Under the pieces are notes generated by a model, which was not told the DNA's origin, made no database searches, and saw nothing but the letters and a program-made list of their open reading frames with translations. Below are positions 282-9,150 of a DNA stretch of 9,322 bases, piece by piece. The DNA is from Coriobacteriaceae bacterium (GTDB lineage Bacteria > Actinomycetota > Coriobacteriia > Coriobacteriales > Coriobacteriaceae): contig CABJBO010000052.1 of assembly GCA_902363875.1 (NCBI GenBank), positions 1 to 9,322 of the forward strand, read 5' to 3'. Each line of letters opens with the position of its first letter. The first letter of the stretch is position 1. A program made the position numbers and the translations under genes.

Positions 282-950
282 CTAGCCAGCCAGATACGGC
301 CCGATTACATCGAAAATTTCGCCCACCTTAGTTGCAGGGTTTTGCGCAGATGGCTTAACGTTACCCAGCCCCCTATGGTATGTGACGAGGCGCCCAACAC
401 GCTGCAATGCCTCGCCTCGTTTGCCGTCCACCACCTCGAACAGCCCGTCCAAGTTCTTGCGGTACTCGATGCCCAGGTCTCTCGACATCTCCTGCGCGAG
501 GGCATGCTGGCAGTCGGACGCGGACATATGCGCGGTCGTGTAGCGAAAGTGCAGAAGAGGCCACAGCTCGAAGCAGGGGTTCGACCACAACGCATGGAAG
601 GTCCTCGAACCATCGGAGAGCTCGTCGCATTTGCGCTCCATCGCGTCAAAGTCGGACGCAGGAAAGTCATCCTTGTCATACACGAGCCACACATGGTCGA
701 ATGTCTCGGGCGCATAGCGGCAGTGTTCGACGGCAAAGTCAAGTAGGTCAAGTGTGTGTTTGCCGGTCCCCTTAACGACAATGGCAACCTTACGCTCGTT
801 CGCCGCACCCAACGCCGCACGCACACCCTCAAAGTAGCGAGGCTCGGTCTCCTTGCCCTCGCTCACTACAAGATGACGCGTCATCTGAACCATGCGCGAG
901 CGGCCCTCTCGTTTGCCGCTACGCCAGCCCTTCGACTTCTTCGCCACCAT
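282..950 (-). CDS. rloB: RloB-family TOPRIM-like protein (AbiLii-type)
   Basis: This 222-residue protein is a good match to the RloB family, the small partner of RloA-type ATPases in AbiL-like systems. The family is thought to act as a nuclease with a TOPRIM-like fold. The amino terminus is strongly basic (residues 1-20). It is followed by the first acidic motif VVSEGKETEPRYF (28-40), the second VWLVYDKDDF (87-96) with its Asp pair, the family block WSNPCFELW (122-130), and a carboxyl-terminal NPATKVGEIFDVI block (204-216). Length is normal for the family. The ATG is preceded by GAGGAG ten bases upstream, and it lies one base after the rloA stop codon (TAG C ATG), so the two are almost certainly cotranslated. 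A second Met at residue 20 is possible but would lose the basic tail common in the family. The nuclease role is family inference. No terminator with a T-tract was found just downstream. Confidence 0.88.
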   Translation of the reverse strand: MVAKKSKGWRSGKREGRSRMVQMTRHLVVSEGKETEPRYFEGVRAALGAANERKVAIVVKGTGKHTLDLLDFAVEHCRYAPETFDHVWLVYDKDDFPASDFDAMERKCDELSDGSRTFHALWSNPCFELWPLLHFRYTTAHMSASDCQHALAQEMSRDLGIEYRKNLDGLFEVVDGKRGEALQRVGRLVTYHRGLGNVKPSAQNPATKVGEIFDVIGPYLAG

Positions 951-951
951 G

Positions 952-2169
952 CTAATCCCACTCCTCGATGCGGGTGAGATACGGATCGGCGCCGTAGCGA
1001 CCGGACAGGTATTGCTTGTCGAAAGCCGCGTTCTTGCTTACCAGATTACCGTTTGCCTCGTGGATGTCGGCGAGAGACCACAGTTGGCTCGCCTCCCCCT
1101 CGCCGCGCGCAGCGAACCATATCTCGTCACGGCGGAACACATCGTTTCGCATGGTTGACACATCCTGGGACGAGAAGATGAGCTGCGCGCCACTCTTGTT
1201 GACCCCAGGATCCTTAAACAGCAGAATCACATAGCGAAGAAGCTTCGGGTGCAGTTTGGCGTCGAGCTCGTCTACCACAACGGTGCCACCACGCTCAAGC
1301 GCTGTCATCAGATACGCAGCCAACCCCATGAGCTTCTGGGTTCCGGCAGATTCCTCGGATAAACGCAGCTCGTACGCCTTGCCGCCCACCTCGTGCCTCA
1401 CGAAGACGCGCTGGCCGCGCCACTCCGGCGCCCTCTCCACTCTGAAGCCATCAATACGTACATCAACGGCGCGCAAAAAACGCGTGACCTCGGGTGAGTC
1501 ATCCTCATCGAGCAATTGTTCGAGCATCTGCTCCAGATAGGAGCTGTTATAGTTCAGGAACACCCCGTCAAGAAACCAGCTGGCAGCCTCCTTGACCACC
1601 GGCGCGTCAAAGTTGATGCAGAGAAACGACAGGTACGGCAGTCTCGGGTTGAATCTCGCAGCCGTCACGAGCTTACGCAGCGTGGGACCGAGCTCAACCT
1701 CTGCGCCCTCACGCTCGAACAGCATCGCCGTGCGTGACGCTCCCAATTTTCGCCGCCATAGGCCTTCGGACACGATCTCGTCCGCATGCACGGACAGGGC
1801 ATAGCGGTACTCGTGCTCACCCGCGCGATAGTAGAGCTCGAACTCGGTGGGCTCGGCAGCAGACACGTCATCGAACTCAAACGCAGAGCAACGGGGTATC
1901 GAAGGACGGTTACCCTCTGGCGCATCAGTGCTGGCAGACAGCAATCTGATAGGCCTGGCCACCGCCGAACGAATGTAGTCAAGCGCCTCGAGCAGGTTAG
2001 ACTTGCCGCCAGCGTTAGGTCCGTACACCGCAGCCACCGGAAGAAAACTCTGCCCGTCAGGGCACTCTATGAGGGAGCGCTCGAACTCCCTCATCGATGT
2101 TGCCTGCATGGAAAGCTCAGTTTCGTCGCGATAGGATCTATAGTTCCTGAAGGTAAACTGGCAAAGCAT
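952..2169 (-). CDS. rloA: RloA-family AAA/ABC-type ATPase (AbiLi-type)
   Basis: This 405-residue ATPase belongs to the SMC/RecF-like group (AAA_21) that pairs with RloB. It should bind and hydrolyse ATP as a dimer to sense infection and gate the RloB effector. Counting from Met at 2169, the protein opens with MLCQFTFRNYRSYRDE, the usual opening strand of the fold. Walker A is YGPNAGGKSNL (49-59), the signature motif is SEESAGTQKLMGL (271-283), and Walker B is TVVVDELDAKLHP (296-308) with catalytic Glu. The position where relatives usually have a TTH or TSH switch histidine reads FSSQD (about 342-346), so that histidine is replaced by Gln. An in-frame ATG at 2190 would add seven residues but has no ribosome site. 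The chosen ATG follows AAAGGA by twelve bases and also has a GAGG close by. A strong promoter lies 55-82 bases upstream. ATPase identity is secure; the defence role rests on family and partner. Confidence 0.9.
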   Translation of the reverse strand: MLCQFTFRNYRSYRDETELSMQATSMREFERSLIECPDGQSFLPVAAVYGPNAGGKSNLLEALDYIRSAVARPIRLLSASTDAPEGNRPSIPRCSAFEFDDVSAAEPTEFELYYRAGEHEYRYALSVHADEIVSEGLWRRKLGASRTAMLFEREGAEVELGPTLRKLVTAARFNPRLPYLSFLCINFDAPVVKEAASWFLDGVFLNYNSSYLEQMLEQLLDEDDSPEVTRFLRAVDVRIDGFRVERAPEWRGQRVFVRHEVGGKAYELRLSEESAGTQKLMGLAAYLMTALERGGTVVVDELDAKLHPKLLRYVILLFKDPGVNKSGAQLIFSSQDVSTMRNDVFRRDEIWFAARGEGEASQLWSLADIHEANGNLVSKNAAFDKQYLSGRYGADPYLTRIEEWD

Positions 2170-2223
2170 CGGCCTCAAAATTCCTTTCATTGTTTTGAAA
2201 AGATATTTCAGGGTTTTTCTTTG

Positions 2224-3158: not shown

Positions 3159-4169
3159 TCACCTCATAGCCCATATCTTCCAAATGCCGTTCCGCTTCAC
3201 CAGAACTATTTCATGCCCGCCCTCGATGAGCTGCGGTCCCTCAATCAGAAACGGTTCTCGAACGTTTGGGAGAAGCTTTACGAGGGCCGAGCCGTCCTCT
3301 TGATACCGAACAAGAGTGCTCATTCCATAATCCCCTTCCAAAAGCTCGGCGGCTTGCAAATAATCACCCCATCTGAAAATGGTCTCCCGTGCGACAAGGG
3401 AATTGAGTTCGCTGGGGTCCAGGGGCCTTCTGCCAAGCGCCTCTTTGAATAGTAGAACAGCGGTGATTATCTCTAAATCATCGCGCGAACCTTGCTGAAC
3501 CTTTTTCTCAATGTCCTCATCCCCAAGATCTCTACCGCGAAGATTTCGCCAAAATGGCGAATTCTCAATCTGGCGACAAGCGTCTTTTGATTCAAACGAA
3601 ACAGTTGCCGATGCTTCCTCTTTCCTCGATAGCGGCTTGATTCCAGCATTAAGAAGGAACTCAGAGAACTGCAGCAAAATCTGTTCTCTCCCCGCGATAT
3701 ACGGTGCCAGGGCGACCAGTCTCATGTGTTCGGGAACAGAGACGAGGTTCTCTGCCCGCGTTATATCCGCGTGCATCAGCACTCCGTACATTACATCTTC
3801 GACGTTTGCAAAGGCACCCTCGACAACCTTGCCGTCCCCAAAGGCAAACTCAATTGATTGGCTATTAAGGGCATCAAGACTATCCAGCAAGGATTCAATC
3901 ACATCCTTACTAGAAGCGAAGTCCCGTTCAGCAGACTTGAGCAGCCTCCTGAGAAACAAGTCCTTTCCGCGCACAAAATACTTGCGCTGCAGCATAAGAC
4001 GCACCGAGACCGCAGCAAACGCTTCATCCCCAAGCTCAAGTTCACCTAATTTCGAAAAGCAATTAGGATCGAAACGGGCAAGCCTCTCATCAAGTGGAAG
4101 CGTGCTGGCAAGTCTCTTGTAAGTATCAATCGTGTATAGATACAACTCATACGCAACGCTATTGTCCAA
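3159..4169 (-). CDS. Unknown protein, partner of OLD-family nuclease
   Basis: This gene encodes 336 residues, and I cannot assign it to a family. It starts 44 bases after the stop of the OLD-family gene in the same direction, so the two form an operon. The chosen start is TTG at 4169 because GAGGGG lies ten bases before it. A TTG at 4187, directly after an in-frame TGA, would add six residues but has no ribosome site, and the nearby ATG is out of frame. The protein is soluble and acidic with no signal or membrane segment. The first two thirds look helical (for example FAAVSVRLMLQRKYFVRGKD and the DRLL-like helices that follow). The end looks like a small beta domain (DGSALVKLLPNV ... HEIVLVKRNGIWKIW). 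No nuclease, ATPase, HEPN or TIR motif was seen. By position it may be a sensor, regulator or immunity subunit of the OLD nuclease. Confidence 0.85.
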   Translation of the reverse strand: MDNSVAYELYLYTIDTYKRLASTLPLDERLARFDPNCFSKLGELELGDEAFAAVSVRLMLQRKYFVRGKDLFLRRLLKSAERDFASSKDVIESLLDSLDALNSQSIEFAFGDGKVVEGAFANVEDVMYGVLMHADITRAENLVSVPEHMRLVALAPYIAGREQILLQFSEFLLNAGIKPLSRKEEASATVSFESKDACRQIENSPFWRNLRGRDLGDEDIEKKVQQGSRDDLEIITAVLLFKEALGRRPLDPSELNSLVARETIFRWGDYLQAAELLEGDYGMSTLVRYQEDGSALVKLLPNVREPFLIEGPQLIEGGHEIVLVKRNGIWKIWAMR

Positions 4170-4213
4170 AGCTGCCGCACCCCTCAATCATGATTGACAG
4201 GTCGATAATTCAC

Positions 4214-6004
4214 CTACTGCGTTTCAACGTCATTGGCCGCACATATCAGATCGCACAACTCTGCCACGCGTTTCATTGCATCACCCAACGGAGAAAAACC
4301 GGCCCCACAGGCAGTCCTTGCAATCCTAATTTTATCTGGATGCGTTTTCCCACCCTTAAACGTAAAGCTCAGCGGGCAAATAAATCTGTCACCAAGGGGA
4401 TGCTCCCATTTTTTACCCGAATAACATTTCTCAATCGAAGCTGCAAGCACATCTTCTGGAACATAGTTCTCAATTGTTGCGCCCCAGGTAACCCACGACA
4501 TTGCGCCGTTCTGTGTGCACTCGTCAATAATGCGTCGCTTGGTTGAATTAAGTCTCGAATGAGAGGATTTCTTATCAGAATCCATCAGCACGCAGAGATG
4601 AGTATTGATTCTAAAGAGGGATATCAGCTCCGCGGGGATATCTTCGCCAGCACTTGCATCTAGTGCATTCAGCAACTTGCCACCGTAAATCATTGCACTG
4701 TAATGAATACCTTCTTCGAGCGAAATGTTATGCTCATCAGACCATCTCTTAATCCAATAATTCAGGTACACGCGGTCCGAGGGCCCCTCAACCCACACTA
4801 CAAAGTTTGCTTGCAACAGATCGGAGGCCTTGACCCCCAAATCATCAAGCAAATCGCGAGCACAACCCAGACCGTCAAGCTGTCTGCATCCAGAAACTCC
4901 ATTTGTCTTAGACACATGGGCAACCTGAACGCCAGGATAGTTAATAACAGTTGGAGAATGCGTAGTGATGATAAATCGGTTTGAATCGTCCTCGAGAAGG
5001 TATTTCATAAACCTCGCCTGCAGAGCCGGGTGCAGATGAATTTCGGGTTCTTCAATACAGATAATGCTGTTGTCGTTGCAAGCAATAATCGAAGCGAGAA
5101 TTACGAGCTCCGTAACTCCCGTACCCAAAGATTCAAGCGGCAGGTAATCGGCATCGGAAGTCTTAAGAGATATCTCATGGCTTTCATGCGAAACAAGCAG
5201 AGAGGCACGGGGGTCGTTCATGACATCGCGCACGAATCCTTGCAGCTTATTCAGCCGCGCTTCTGCCCGAGCATGATTTGAACGCTCCGGATTAAACAAG
5301 CGAAGCAAAGCTGTTGGAAGACCGCGTCCGCTGCAAAGATCGACATCGCGATCTGGAAAATCATCGTCTTCAACCGACCTAATTGCATCGACCTTAACAA
5401 AGCGAGGGATATTCCCCCACGGAACAATACTGCGGATTATGTCGGCATAGCACGATTCGTCATCACCGCCGTGTTGGAGAGGATCAAGGGAGCAGCGATT
5501 CAGGTCCATAGACAAGCCTGCACTTTTATACTGCGAGAAAGACGCAATCAGATCATTTACTAAAGACGACCCAGCAGCCGGCGACGCCGTTAGAAAGTCA
5601 AGCCAAACGCCATCTCCATCGTTTGATATATACGGCGGACGGGAAAATAACTCAGAAAGCTCTGCCATCCGCTTATCTCCAGAAGGTCGCTTTAAACTGG
5701 AGGACTCCAATAAAACAGATCGATCTATACACAGGGAAATAGTCAACGGGTCATTTGCCCCCGCTGATTTCAGCAGCAAGGGCGCATCTTCCCTAGTGAA
5801 GGGATAGCGATTGCGGGCGATTTCCCCTCTTTGGTCAATGGATGTCATTGCCTTAATAACAAAATCAACAAGAGACGATTTTCCGCAGTTATTCTGTCCC
5901 GCTAGGACTTGGACTTTATCAAATGGACCGAAGCGCGAGTCTTCACTTCCGAAAAAGGAGCGATAGCCGCTACAACCAAAACCCAGAAAGATATTGCGAC
6001 GCAT
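4214..6004 (-). CDS. OLD-family ATP-dependent endonuclease (ATPase + TOPRIM)
   Basis: This 596-residue protein is an overcoming-lysogenization-defect (OLD) nuclease, of the architecture found in P2 Old and Gabija GajA. Numbering from the chosen Met, Walker A is GQNNCGKSS (36-44), an ABC-signature-like LESLGTGVTEL is at 290-300, Walker B is IICIEEPEIHLHP (314-326), and the switch motif is ITTHSP (346-351). The carboxyl TOPRIM domain has VVWVEGPSD (402-410, catalytic Glu), VLMDSDKKS (472-480, Asp pair) and ATIENYVPED (509-518). All key residues are present, so it should be active, with ATP gating DNA cleavage. An upstream in-frame ATG at 6070 would add 22 residues. However, ATG 6004 has AAGGGGGG nine bases before it and begins exactly at the fold's first strand. 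No UvrD-like helicase (GajB) or reverse transcriptase is adjacent, so this is neither canonical Gabija nor a retron system. Its neighbour is the unknown 336-residue protein. Confidence 0.9.
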   Translation of the reverse strand: MRRNIFLGFGCSGYRSFFGSEDSRFGPFDKVQVLAGQNNCGKSSLVDFVIKAMTSIDQRGEIARNRYPFTREDAPLLLKSAGANDPLTISLCIDRSVLLESSSLKRPSGDKRMAELSELFSRPPYISNDGDGVWLDFLTASPAAGSSLVNDLIASFSQYKSAGLSMDLNRCSLDPLQHGGDDESCYADIIRSIVPWGNIPRFVKVDAIRSVEDDDFPDRDVDLCSGRGLPTALLRLFNPERSNHARAEARLNKLQGFVRDVMNDPRASLLVSHESHEISLKTSDADYLPLESLGTGVTELVILASIIACNDNSIICIEEPEIHLHPALQARFMKYLLEDDSNRFIITTHSPTVINYPGVQVAHVSKTNGVSGCRQLDGLGCARDLLDDLGVKASDLLQANFVVWVEGPSDRVYLNYWIKRWSDEHNISLEEGIHYSAMIYGGKLLNALDASAGEDIPAELISLFRINTHLCVLMDSDKKSSHSRLNSTKRRIIDECTQNGAMSWVTWGATIENYVPEDVLAASIEKCYSGKKWEHPLGDRFICPLSFTFKGGKTHPDKIRIARTACGAGFSPLGDAMKRVAELCDLICAANDVETQ

Positions 6005-6099
6005 TCTTGCCAGCCCCCCTTGATAAATAAGCCATGTCCAAACTAATTCTAATTGTCTAAAACTCTTCATGAACCAGCAGCACGTGAGAACGGTCCCAT

Positions 6100-6243
6100 C
6101 TAAAGCATGTCCATCGCCTTAGGCTTCAATGTAAAAGATAGTGACCACTCCACCGTCGAACTCATCGACCATCTCATTGACCACAGCTCATAATTCTGCA
6201 AAGTTGGATACTCGATAGAGATTGTCGTGCAATCATTTGGATA
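6100..6243 (-). pseudogene. Possible gene remnant between abiF and the OLD operon
   Basis: On the minus strand a 47-codon frame without a start runs from just after a TGA to a TAG at 6102-6100. It has unusual Trp-rich, protein-like text: SIEYPTLQNYELWSMRWSM, then VEWSLSFTLKPKAMDML. It looks like the carboxyl end of a larger protein whose beginning has been lost. I cannot name the family. It occupies the leader region of the OLD operon, in the same direction. Other frames here are also short and open, so confidence is low. Confidence 0.25.
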
Positions 6244-6283
6244 TCAATTGCAGGACAACTCAACCGTATCGACGCCCTCAGCC

Positions 6284-7225
6284 TCAATCGAACAGGGTGC
6301 CATCTTGTGACTTTTGAAGCAGCTCAACAAATCCAATTTGGTCGAGTATGTGCTTTATCGCGTAGGTTTTCAAATACCTACTCAGCAGAGCCGTCAACTC
6401 TTCGACAAACGTTCTGAATTCAATCTCGGTCAGATAACGTTTGAGCATCCACACCATCTGGATGTAGTTAATGTTCTTGCGCCCTCCGACCCTAGCACAA
6501 TAAAGACGCTCGTCATGGGCGCAAACGTTACGGAATTTAACGAGTGTTTCAATTGAAAGTTGAGCGGCCTTTTCGCTAAAGAAACCGCTTTTCTTCGATC
6601 CGGTTTTCCCAGTTGCATCTACAATCATTTTGCAAAAAGTACGCCGCTCGCCGGGCTTCATCAGATTGTAGAAATGCTCCATGTTTCCAAACGTCAAATC
6701 ATTAACCAGAACCCACAGCGGCACCGAACCATATTCATTGCGATAGTGAGCAACAAATTCAGATTTACTTTTTAATGCCCTGCGGCTAAGTATGCTCGTC
6801 AGATTGGAAATCTCACGGGCGTATCTCGCCTCGTCTTTTCCCGTCGCAGAATATTCGTCTTGAGCACAAAATGAAGACTGCAAGTAATAGTCATTGGGAC
6901 CACGATGAACATTCGAAAAGGTGTACGCGATCGCGGTCTTTATTTTGGCCTCGGCTAATATGAGAAACTTAAATGTTAGAGACCTCAACTCCCTATCGAA
7001 CGTAAACAATGAATATAGGTCCGAAAAGGTTGCGCCGCTGCGATACCGGTCCTCATTGAACTTCGAGCTTAAGCTCATATCAATAAACGGATCCTTATAG
7101 CCGTTAACAATCGAGTAATAACCCTCGCTCATCAGAATGCGAGCCGTGTTGTCGTCAACAGTCAAACCCCTTTGCTTAAGCAATCTGACTTGATCGTCAA
7201 TGGGCAAGAAAGGCTTTGCTGTCAT
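6284..7225 (-). CDS. abiF: AbiF/AbiD-family abortive infection protein (Abi_2, HEPN)
   Basis: This 313-residue protein matches the Abi_2 family (AbiD/AbiF) in both length and motif order. It begins FLPIDDQVRLLKQRGL, followed by EGYYSIVNGYKDPF (34-47), the long helix FDRELRSLTFKFLILAEAK (76-94), and PLWVLVNDLTFGNMEHFY (169-186). It also carries the HEPN-type ribonuclease motif RNVCAHDERLY (232-242), in which R232 and H237 give the R-x4-H spacing. HEPN proteins of this kind cleave RNA and shut down growth on infection. From memory, recent work ties AbiF proteins to a conserved non-coding RNA acting as antitoxin and to the ancestry of Cas13. The ATG has GAGGAG five bases upstream. The SD lies inside a short palindrome (TTGAG/CTCAA) that could partly hide it. 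The leader is highly structured (see the ncRNA entry). The gene stands alone in its orientation, upstream of the OLD operon. Confidence 0.9.
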   Translation of the reverse strand: MTAKPFLPIDDQVRLLKQRGLTVDDNTARILMSEGYYSIVNGYKDPFIDMSLSSKFNEDRYRSGATFSDLYSLFTFDRELRSLTFKFLILAEAKIKTAIAYTFSNVHRGPNDYYLQSSFCAQDEYSATGKDEARYAREISNLTSILSRRALKSKSEFVAHYRNEYGSVPLWVLVNDLTFGNMEHFYNLMKPGERRTFCKMIVDATGKTGSKKSGFFSEKAAQLSIETLVKFRNVCAHDERLYCARVGGRKNINYIQMVWMLKRYLTEIEFRTFVEELTALLSRYLKTYAIKHILDQIGFVELLQKSQDGTLFD

Positions 7226-7242
7226 TGAGGCTCCTCAAATGA

Positions 7243-7312
7243 AGAAAGGCAGCCATCCCAAGAAGGACAGCCGCCTTTCTGCAGGACGCGGGACCCGTAG
7301 GTTATCCGCGTC
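7243..7312 (-). ncRNA. Tandem stem-loops in the abiF leader, candidate RNA antitoxin
   Basis: Transcribed with abiF, the leader folds into two hairpins. The first has stem GACGCGG/CCGCGTC (7312-7306 with 7291-7285) and an inner ACC/GGT closing a tetraloop. The second pairs AGAAAGGCGGCUGUCC (7280-7265) with GGAUGGCUGCCUUUCU (7258-7243) around the six-base loop UUCUUG: 16 unbroken pairs, three of them G-U. Those three are pairs only on this strand, being C-A mismatches on the other, which points to an RNA function in the abiF direction. The second hairpin ends 12 bases before the abiF SD, with a mildly T-rich stretch between. It could be a separate small RNA, an attenuator or a translation regulator. 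That it acts as an AbiF antitoxin is inferred from family knowledge. Confidence 0.55.
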
Positions 7313-7329
7313 AATACCGCTGTTCAGAT

Positions 7330-7358
7330 AGTCTACTGATTATCGATCCAAAAATCAA
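7330..7358 (-). promoter_or_regulatory. Promoter of the abiF leader
   Basis: On the minus strand TTGATT (7358-7353) is followed by 17 bases and TAGACT (7335-7330). Each box matches consensus at four of six positions. Start of transcription would be at A7324 or A7323, about 11 bases before the first stem-loop and about 99 bases before the abiF ATG. Confidence 0.5.
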
Positions 7359-7571
7359 CGTTAAAAATTGAGCCGAACGACAAAACATATGACCCTAAAT
7401 TCTCATTTTCATTGCAGCCGCTCAGGCTGTTGCGTTGAGATTGTAATCAACCCGCTTCCCTAAAGCGATAGAATAAAAAACGAGCAGGGTCGCGTATCGC
7501 CGGAACAATGCCCTCAATATATTTGAATCCGCAATTAGGCAAACACCAAACCCATAATCCGGACAACAGAA
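7359..7571. other. Divergent intergenic region with no clear gene
   Basis: This stretch separates the abiF leader promoter from the next plus-strand gene. It holds a short inverted repeat CAGCC/GGCTG near 7416-7430, GTTGA/TCAAC near 7434-7451, and a TAGAAT box at 7469-7474 on the plus strand without a convincing -35 partner. I could not define the promoter for the plus-strand gene. Confidence 0.4.
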
Positions 7572-8249
7572 GTGAGCCATATGCATAGCCCCATTGATAG
7601 CGAAAGCTACGTCATGCCCATCCTTGGCAGGACCAAGATTGATATCTGGGAGTGTTATGCGAGACATGTTCTGCAATTTATCGATAACGACAAATACGGC
7701 AATTTGGCTTACAGCGACAAACCGGATCTGATCGATCGGGCACAGTCCCTGGGCATCGAGGTAACAGCTTCCCAATCACAAGACAGCAGAAAGGCAGAAT
7801 CCCTCTATTCCAAACTCCTATACGAGAATGATTCTTCTCAGGAAAAACGCCGAATCGAACTTATTGAGCAATGTGGAGCGCATTTCGAAAAAGGAGTCCT
7901 GTATGGCCCAAATGGTTCGGATTCGTTCGAGCTGATTATTGAGGTTCTTCGCAAAAAGCTGGACAGACTCGACTCTGGCGACTACGAACCCTTTAGGAGA
8001 AACGAGCTGTTTGTCAGATCCAATATTCTAGCTGACGAGGAAATGCTTCGCGAAGCGCTCTCCAACATGAAAAAAGAATCCAGTGGTCACTCATGCCACT
8101 TCGCATCTGTTATCGTCTCGGTCCCTGGATACAATTACGTTTTCGACCTCGATGCATCGACATGCGTATCTCTTGAATTCGAATACGAAGACCAGCATCG
8201 TATTGCTCGTGAAGCAAACAAGGAAGTGAACATCGCACAGTCAAGCTGA
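7572..8249 (+). CDS. Unknown protein with possible PD-(D/E)XK nuclease core
   Basis: This protein of up to 225 residues is encoded divergently from abiF. Its best clue is KPDLIDRAQSLGIEVTAS (50-67): an Asp in a PD motif (D52), then a hydrophobic strand with Glu and Thr (E63-V-T65). This is the spacing of a PD-(D/E)XK nuclease fold with Thr where Lys is usual, a variation known in restriction-like families. An amino-terminal helical part precedes it. A carboxyl beta-rich part (HFASVIVSVPGYNYVFDLD, 176-194) follows. No membrane segment is present. The start is uncertain: GTG 7572 gives the longest form, ATG 7581 or ATG 7614 are alternatives, and none has a strong ribosome site (AGTGAG lies four bases before 7581). 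The nuclease call is a motif-level guess; the gene itself looks genuine, with consistent codon use. The next gene begins 229 bases later in the same direction. Confidence 0.8.
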   Translation: MSHMHSPIDSESYVMPILGRTKIDIWECYARHVLQFIDNDKYGNLAYSDKPDLIDRAQSLGIEVTASQSQDSRKAESLYSKLLYENDSSQEKRRIELIEQCGAHFEKGVLYGPNGSDSFELIIEVLRKKLDRLDSGDYEPFRRNELFVRSNILADEEMLREALSNMKKESSGHSCHFASVIVSVPGYNYVFDLDASTCVSLEFEYEDQHRIAREANKEVNIAQSS

Positions 8250-8478: not shown

Positions 8479-9150
8479 ATGCTCAAAGACGGCATCGCAT
8501 ACCTACTCAAGTTCGCGCCCAAGGAAGCATACATCGACGACTTGATAAACGGTCGCCTCTACATGAACGCGGCCGGCTACTATCATGGCCTGCCTGGCGA
8601 GCAGGGCGATCCACTCGAGGCGTCCATGGCTCCCGGAGTGTGCCTCTACGGATATACTTGTCTGCCCATCTACTGCATGTACACGGTCCGCGAGAACGAT
8701 ATCGTCGACAACACCGTGAAAAACCCGATGCGCATGATCCAGGAGTTCGGGTGCGCGGACGGGTGGATCGGTATCGTGCAGTACGACAGCTTCGCACGCC
8801 TCGCCGACAGACACATTGCCGACGACGGAAGCGTCTACGCCCACGGTCCCATCTCCTACGGCGTCCCCGGGCCAAAACTGATTCGCGAGATCTTTGAGGG
8901 CATCCCGCACAATCTCGTTATCAAAACGCCCAAGTACGCATATCAGAAGGAGTATCGAATCATCGGGTCGCGACCGGTCGAATGTCGTCTTTTACCAGAC
9001 GAGAATCACCCTGGCTGCAAAATTGAAAAATACGACCATGCGGAACTAGACTTAGGCTGCAGCCTCGCGGACTTTTCCTGGAAGTTCTCGGTGCCGTGCC
9101 TCGATGAGCCGCAAGACGGCCTCATGTTGAAGCTACCGCATTGCGTATAG
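8479..9150 (+). CDS. Hypothetical protein, DUF2971-like
   Basis: This 223-residue protein starts at an ATG preceded by AAAGGA at ideal spacing, so the gene is solid. Its layout resembles DUF2971-type proteins, which are common in defence islands and on mobile elements. There is an early Lys-Phe (11-12), then INGRLYMNAAGYY (23-35), the short turn QGDPLEA (42-48), and a late KYAYQKEYRI (152-161). The pattern is of the form K-F, NGxLYxN, DPxE and EYR(I/L). No function is established for these motifs that I can state with confidence. A weak similarity to ADP-ribosyltransferase-like folds has been suggested for relatives, but I cannot show it here. There are several Cys residues but no clear zinc site, and no signal or membrane segment. 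By eye the gene is GC-richer than the preceding gene and has its own leader, so it is probably a separate module. Confidence 0.85.
   Translation: MLKDGIAYLLKFAPKEAYIDDLINGRLYMNAAGYYHGLPGEQGDPLEASMAPGVCLYGYTCLPIYCMYTVRENDIVDNTVKNPMRMIQEFGCADGWIGIVQYDSFARLADRHIADDGSVYAHGPISYGVPGPKLIREIFEGIPHNLVIKTPKYAYQKEYRIIGSRPVECRLLPDENHPGCKIEKYDHAELDLGCSLADFSWKFSVPCLDEPQDGLMLKLPHCV

Follow-up and report, generated by a model that had tools for sequence, protein, structure and literature searches.

A two-hairpin RNA in the leader of a coriobacterial abiF gene as a candidate antitoxin

Two tandem stem-loops lie just upstream of an abiF gene in the Coriobacteriaceae sequence analysed here, and this raises the question of whether they form an RNA that restrains the encoded toxin, a switch controlling transcription into its gene, a plain terminator or an operator in the DNA. 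The window, i.e. the whole stretch of DNA analysed, comprises 9,322 nucleotides.

The abiF gene and its predicted leader transcript

The minus strand of the window carries an abiF/abiD-like Abi_2 gene (6284-7225) encoding 313 aa. The protein is a member of Abi_2 (PF07751, E 1.4e-38, 133.5 bits with a cut-off of 25.6) and matches the PADLOC AbiD model (1.2e-44). Its HEPN motif, R232-N-V-C-A-H237, has the R-x4-H form; R232 and H237 are invariant across a 63-row alignment and the motif aligns with the R-x4-H of 8vz6, which carries the annotation Abi family protein and is the sole PDB match by sequence (E 1.1e-18). The Pfam, PADLOC and PDB matches agree with an earlier, first-pass annotation of this DNA, which had placed an RNA in the leader of a HEPN-type abiF, and Abi_2/HEPN membership suggests that AbiF is a growth-arresting RNase. 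A database protein with 95% identity is the closest match. With the single protein as query no relative was found in genome or viral contigs, while the 63-row alignment recovered them; among the best 80 of 143 matches the nearest named relatives are Coriobacteriia, headed by Collinsella aerofaciens (L002, 68% identity) and followed by Enorma, Collinsella, Olsenella and Slackia.

Read along the minus strand, the locus consists of a promoter-like pair, stem-loop 1 (SL1), stem-loop 2 (SL2), a U-rich tail, a ribosome-binding site (GAGGAG, 7231-7236) and the intact Abi_2 gene from 7225, which confirms the layout first proposed, with two tandem stem-loops between a plausible promoter and the abiF start. 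The minus-strand stretch 7226-7330 folds at -51.2 kcal/mol compared to a mean of -32.1 (sd 3.4) for 200 shuffled versions, none of which folds equally well (z -5.56). SL1 (7285-7312) has a 7-bp outer stem (7312-7306 paired with 7291-7285), an asymmetric internal loop, a 3-bp inner stem ACC/GGU (7302-7300 paired with 7295-7293) and a UACG loop. The terminator-like SL2 (7243-7280) joins arms 7280-7264 and 7259-7243 in 17 unbroken pairs, or 16 without the closing U-G pair, the number given previously. Three of the 16 are G-U pairs, as also stated before (G7272-U7251, U7269-G7254 and G7268-U7255). In one relative (L010, 2248-2370) a tandem duplication around SL2 has left the second hairpin in two copies.

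The -35-like hexamer TTGATT (7353-7358) and the -10-like hexamer TAGACT (7330-7335), both read from the sequence on the minus strand, are 17 nt apart. With 8 of 12 matches to the consensus, the pair is unlisted by a consensus promoter scan of the window. A TTGA-like hexamer occurs at a roughly matching place in many, not all, of the relatives' leaders. The pair is believable because the end of the TANNNT hexamer lies 6-8 nt 5' of a conserved AGYGR element in 27 leaders, the window included (by eye), and transcription should therefore start there. The predicted +1 falls at about 7323-7321, near the start at 7324 suggested earlier. The candidate product is a short non-coding RNA of about 85-90 nt (7236-7323, minus strand, predicted ends), running from the promoter to the end of the U-rich tail.

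Conservation and covariation of the leader

The leaders of related abiF genes fall into class A (the window, L002-L012, L126 and L127) and class B (for example L013-L026, L028, L131, L165, L168, L178 and L185-L187). A model, R1, was built from 11 class-A seeds, the window among them. It matches all 14 distinct leaders of the closest Abi_2 genes (profile score at least 388), 11 of which are seeds; the window matches over the full length (84.3 bits, model 1-92) just 5' of the Abi_2 start, partly by construction. Outside its seed, R1 matches 17 class-B leaders at E 0.003 or better.

Changes on both sides of a pair are frequent. The class-A alignment A2 (MAFFT) holds 11 of the 14 leaders, without the near-duplicates L005 and L127 and without L010, in which part of the leader is duplicated; 15 of 26 pairs have changed on both sides, and 93.9% of cells are paired compared to 42.8-52.7% in slid versions. 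These changes are found in four of the seven outer and two of the three inner pairs of SL1, and in 9 of the 16 pairs of SL2. In class B (A4, 17 leaders) compensatory changes occur in 13 of 24 pairs, with 91.6% of cells paired versus 35.5-53.0% in slid versions; A4 omits the divergent L014, L045 and L046, the near-duplicates L025, L026 and L187, also L022, as well as L035, L176 and L182, which were excluded because it is doubtful that they are the same RNA. All 17 class-B rows and 10 of the 11 class-A rows retain the U-G wobble 7269-7254 of SL2. In a set of 26 class-A RNAs, toxin-free ones included (A9), covariation was compared to a null in which branch substitutions were redistributed along a FastTree tree. 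This purpose-written script, used rather than R-scape and of modest power with 26 short sequences, gave 13 of 26 pairs at p<0.05, eight at p<0.01 and three at E<0.05, while 5 of 3715 non-helix pairs pass E<0.05. The sense strand out-folds its complement in all 30 leaders compared, by a mean of 12.4 kcal/mol. The first-pass annotation had argued for selection on RNA rather than DNA and had named a lack of compensatory changes in homologues as evidence against its reading. Such changes are present, wobbles are kept in relatives and the sense strand folds better, all of which bear out the argument.

A wider SL1 core across phyla was considered and dropped. It had been drawn by eye from eight SL1-like leaders in Bacillota genomes and viral contigs (A6), and no universal core is claimed because a search of 86 sources with the model made from them (R2) added no abiF leader and failed to recover the class-B leaders that those sources contain; one of the three weak matches is SL1 in the class-A copy of L026.

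A second helix, P1, may compete with SL2. The sequence GCUGU in the 5' arm of SL2 (7267-7271, minus strand) is complementary to ACAGC at 7323-7319, and the pairing is strong in class B (90.4% of cells versus 26-54% when slid; 76.2% in class A) and weak in the window, where only 5 bp form, no better than in shuffles (0.456 of 1000). Permutations with swapped arms were as good in 24 of 20000 cases for class B and 5 of 20000 for both classes together, both significant, and in 2342 of 20000 for class A alone, which is not; L225 (no anchor match) and L217 were excluded from the permutation, as were the near-duplicates L005, L022, L025 and L187 and the additional copies in L026 and L165, and the arm window is offset by about 1 nt in five rows (L012, L017, L045, L046 and L223). 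By pairing, class B thus holds two mutually exclusive conserved helices, with covarying outer pairs of P1 that are possibly untranscribed, as these pairs (A4 columns 6-68 and 7-67) probably fall at positions -1/-2, before the predicted +1. The repeat could be an antiterminator or an operator.

Predicted termination and relation to known abiF RNAs

The U-rich tail UUUCUUCAUUUG (7236-7247, minus strand) follows the G+C core of SL2, and the pairing of SL2 extends into the first 5 nt of the tail. The tail contains 8 T in 12 positions, a content reached by 0.2% of sampled 12-mers, with a background taken from the plus strand of every locus, whereas the leader of the window is on the minus strand. 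Over 33 leaders, the T content after the SL2 core averages 7.3 of 12. The tail is an interrupted U-run, SL2 ends 17 nt 5' of the start codon, and a terminator scan of the window did not report SL2; by a purpose-made rule the window leader counts as terminator-like. Applied to 133 of 208 abiF starts (those with a full N-terminus and 150 nt upstream, near-duplicates removed), this rule finds terminator-like hairpins in 35 of 74 coriobacterial abiF leaders compared to 9 of the 288 remaining ORFs from these loci; the corresponding figures for other taxa (Bifidobacteria, Bacillota, viral contigs and others) are 36 of 59 and 20 of 234. The enrichment is significant in both groups (Fisher p <1e-16 each) against controls that are mechanical ORFs of at least 150 aa rather than curated genes. 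The 39 coriobacterial leaders without such a hairpin include eight of classes A and B (L009, L126, L010, L131, L013, L014, L018 and L178) and a leader-less clade. In this clade of coriobacterial Abi_2 genes (L132, L138-L142, L145 and L148) neither an R1 match nor a visible leader of the two-hairpin kind was found, and the Abi_2 family therefore does not always need the RNA. Some members of the clade and their relatives have a -10-like box near the start codon. A third leader type, GUGAUGAGG..CGGUACGUCCG.. followed by a terminator-like hairpin, precedes the Abi_2 genes of L027, L031-L033, L087, L088, L174, L177 and L179.

The only abiF RNA family returned by the Rfam searches is RF03085. It has no match in the window at E<=5, nor in 6000-7600 at E<=10, while the same search recovers the leader of the C. 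difficile phage phiC2 (37.6 bits, gathering 37), and Rfam as a whole gives only chance matches in the window (mir-3158, Chloroflexi-1 and mir-367, E 2.3-4.5). Among the 31 genomes and records behind the loci, RF03085 has two matches at E<=1 and none above its cut-off; among 396 Coriobacteriia genomes, searched with stricter filters, it exceeds the cut-off in seven. Ten RF03085 loci were inspected (seven over and three under the cut-off), and in three (L247, L250 and L255) a divergent Abi_2 frame, recognised by the A1 profile, follows directly. RF03085 thus occurs at some coriobacterial abiF genes, and at least two different abiF-associated RNAs therefore exist in Coriobacteriia. The earlier suggestion that the leader is a candidate for the published AbiF non-coding RNA does not hold, since RF03085 is unmatched and the fold differs; a match of such a model elsewhere in the locus, which had been named as adverse to the antitoxin proposal, is likewise absent from the window. 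Judged by its sequence, the leader is a distinct coriobacterial RNA rather than the published one, and no report of a two-hairpin abiF leader RNA in Coriobacteriia was found in the open-licence literature.

The best-described relative is RCd22 of C. difficile, an abiF leader RNA that ends at a terminator, neutralises AbiF both in cis and in trans and copurifies with it, according to the available text of the report (PMC12373285). As far as that text goes, the two loci share a leader non-coding RNA with a promoter, or promoter-like pair, of its own, a terminator or terminator-like hairpin 5' of the toxin gene, and an Abi_2/HEPN protein with the RN-x-CAH motif (PMC12373285). Location of the RNA in the toxin's own 5' leader, pointed out previously, is hence not unusual, as RCd22 has it as well. 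The RNAs differ in that RCd22 has two RF03085 hairpins, with the larger internal loop on the 3' side, and a separate terminator hairpin, whereas in the window SL1 differs in sequence and carries its internal loop in the 5' arm, and the wobble-containing SL2 (wobbles conserved) lies directly 5' of the U-rich tail. PbAbiF-AbiFr (PDB 8vz6) is an RNA-bound HEPN dimer and a distant homologue of the window protein (PMC12737573, available part). The L. lactis abiD1 gene, according to the accessible part of PMC2661086, is likewise an Abi_2 gene with a terminator in its leader, and the only visible promoter transcript is a 50 b RNA ending at the terminator just upstream. It differs in the control described there, translational activation by a phage protein, and removal of the terminator had no positive effect on a reporter (PMC2661086).

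More generally, in Type III systems the RNA antitoxin lies directly 5' of a cotranscribed toxin gene with a terminator between them, and it binds and neutralises the toxin protein, a growth-arresting RNase. The sequence of the window places the predicted RNA directly 5' of abiF, with the terminator-like SL2 between. The ToxIN toxin and its RNA are unrelated to AbiF and the leader RNA, and ToxI is repetitive whereas the coriobacterial abiF RNA is a single two-hairpin unit. The likeness to ToxIN lies in the Type III logic of an RNA antitoxin with its toxin, as described in the available part of PMC3475682.

Copies without the toxin and the proposed role of the RNA

In the 396 Coriobacteriia genomes (searched with stricter filters and with 10 candidates per genome scored, which may miss weak copies), R1 gave 24 matches of at least 41 bits, all full-length, of which nine are seeds found by construction. 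Three of the 15 others lie at Abi_2 starts (G017, G004 and G169, the last with a broken gene). Five are followed by an apparent C-terminal abiF remnant with a shared junction, recognised by tblastn in L223 (E 3e-24) and L026 (E 6e-8) and by eye in L220-L222. The remaining seven (G193:C16, G332, G199, G171, G107, G242 and G157) have no recognisable abiF start directly downstream; the contig of G199 ends 420 nt past the RNA, and G157 has an intact abiF farther downstream, preceded by a class-B leader of its own. A further degraded trace of this remnant may be present in L216, L219 and L244 (by eye). In L220 and L222 a weak match to the Abi_2 N-terminus occurs farther along (E 8e-4 and 1e-4), in L222 within an ORF carrying an HTH_3 domain. 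Eight of the 11 genomes with toxin-free copies have no Abi_2 match at E<=1e-20, a count that includes possibly incomplete genomes. A pattern scan of IMG/VR gave seven viral contigs, two with the full RNA (L244, 2798-2890, 84.6 bits; L240, 6802-6893, 79.2 bits), and tblastn at E<=1e-4 found no abiF in either (6.3 of the 17.9 kb of L244 covered). Neither the window leader in annotated phages nor the L216 RNA in plasmids gave any BLAST match.

Full-length copies without abiF are found in prophage-like regions in L216, L217, L219, L240 and L244. Their neighbours comprise an integrase, a ParB-like protein and a regulator in L240, a regulator, a HicB-like protein and an integrase in L244, a RhuM-family gene just upstream in L216, L217 and L219 (tested for L216, by eye for the others) and, downstream in L217, an integrase-like gene resembling that of L244 by eye. 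A shared partner gene was sought in protein X, which follows the RNA in L216, L219 and L244 (one family, by eye) and has a partial relative in L165 (by eye), and was rejected, other neighbours being present in L217, L218, L240, L224 and L225. Protein X of L244 matches PHROG 3243, of unassigned function, the L216 and L219 copies have no Pfam match, and a viral-contig scan with protein X returned only its own contig.

The structure is maintained in these copies. In 12 genomic toxin-free copies (A8), 93.3% of cells are paired versus 41.9-54.3% in slid versions, and 11 of 27 pairs show compensatory changes. Identity among L026, L223 and L220 amounts to 84-94% in the RNA, 50-64% in the promoter stretch and 38-42% in the downstream sequence. 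Among L216, L217 and L219 the promoter stretch (95-98%) is more alike than the RNA (84-92%), and L220 and L222, close relatives throughout, have flanks as similar as the RNA; by these latter identities the toxin-free copies could be recent toxin losses.

As a cis attenuator is useless without its gene, a structured RNA kept without abiF favours a trans-acting function. Together with the RCd22 precedent (PMC12373285, available part), the toxin-free copies make an antitoxin released by premature termination the likeliest reading. We accordingly put at about two in three the probability that the conserved two-hairpin RNA is a trans antitoxin of the downstream predicted HEPN RNase AbiF, with SL2 predicted to end most transcripts. 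Of the original proposal the RNA antitoxin candidate thus stands, with the toxin-free copies favouring it over an attenuator, while identity with the published RNA does not. Transcription would start near 7323-7321 and most polymerases would stop in the U-rich tail (7247-7236), releasing an RNA of about 85 nt, while rare read-through would give the abiF mRNA. Excess RNA would bind the AbiF dimer and block its RNase site. If the supply of RNA were lost, e.g. by phage host shut-off, AbiF would be freed, leading to RNA cleavage and cell arrest.

The terminator-like tail on SL2, 17 nt 5' of the start codon, and the enrichment of such hairpins in abiF leaders would also suit a pure cis attenuator, in which SL1 and SL2 govern how often transcription continues into abiF and the released RNA is without a role of its own, and a P1 repeat conserved in class B is what is expected of an antiterminator. 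However, the RNA persists with covariation where an abiF start is absent directly downstream, SL1 covaries though dispensable for termination, and the C. difficile leader RNA is also active in trans (PMC12373285, available part), which makes pure attenuation unlikely. That the hairpins are an ordinary intrinsic terminator or generic hairpin with no specific link to AbiF is far less probable still: R1 matches below about 34 bits do include generic G+C-rich terminators (L229-L233 inspected), but 17 of the 24 matches of at least 41 bits lie at abiF starts or remnants (three remnants by eye), conservation extends beyond SL2 to SL1 and the 5' AGYGR element, and the conserved wobbles would weaken a plain terminator. 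We give equally little credence to inverted repeats acting in the DNA as operator sites for a regulator. The position of the outer P1 pairs, probably 5' of the predicted +1, means that P1 may act in DNA, yet the SL2 wobble kept in nearly all rows breaks DNA symmetry and the sense strand consistently folds better.

The trans antitoxin reading also bears on the prophage-like copies. A phage with its own copies of the antitoxin sequence escapes ToxIN (PMC3475682, available part), and it may tentatively be suggested, at odds well short of even, that stand-alone copies with their own promoter in coriobacterial prophages are decoy antitoxins holding host AbiF off during infection, and that the decayed chromosomal copies are anti-addiction RNAs. 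If so, the decoys would be the AbiF counterpart of phage pseudo-ToxI, and one RNA would serve as antitoxin, attenuator and counter-defence. The toxin-free copies in prophage-like regions offer material for testing phage antitoxin mimics against AbiF, and the structurally different RNA of Coriobacteriia offers natural variation for testing RNA recognition by AbiF. The available parts of PMC12737573 and PMC12165695 propose that Cas13 descends from AbiF-type HEPN ribonucleases that have RNA partners.

A further locus, L191, holds a sub-threshold RF03085-like hairpin (1426-1460, minus strand, 23.3-23.4 bits) with a near-identical score in more than 10 genomes. In L191 about 45 residues resembling the Abi_2 N-terminus (by eye) come next, unreported by the A1 profile, and run on into unrelated sequence; the hairpin is possibly a second case of an RNA kept without its toxin.

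The remainder of the window contains, divergent from abiF, two plus-strand ORFs of 225 and 223 aa (7572-8249 and 8479-9150) without a Pfam or PADLOC match. On the minus strand, a 618-aa OLD/GajA-like AAA ATPase (4214-6070; best PADLOC models AriA, NsnB, PtuA and GajA) is followed by a 342-aa protein (3159-4187) with no Pfam or PADLOC match, and the two form a possible further defence pair. An RloB-like protein (222 aa) and an AbiLi-like AAA ATPase (412 aa) make up an AbiL-type pair (282-2190, minus strand), and look-alike RloB/AbiLi proteins (by eye) adjoin the toxin-free RNA copies in L220-L222.
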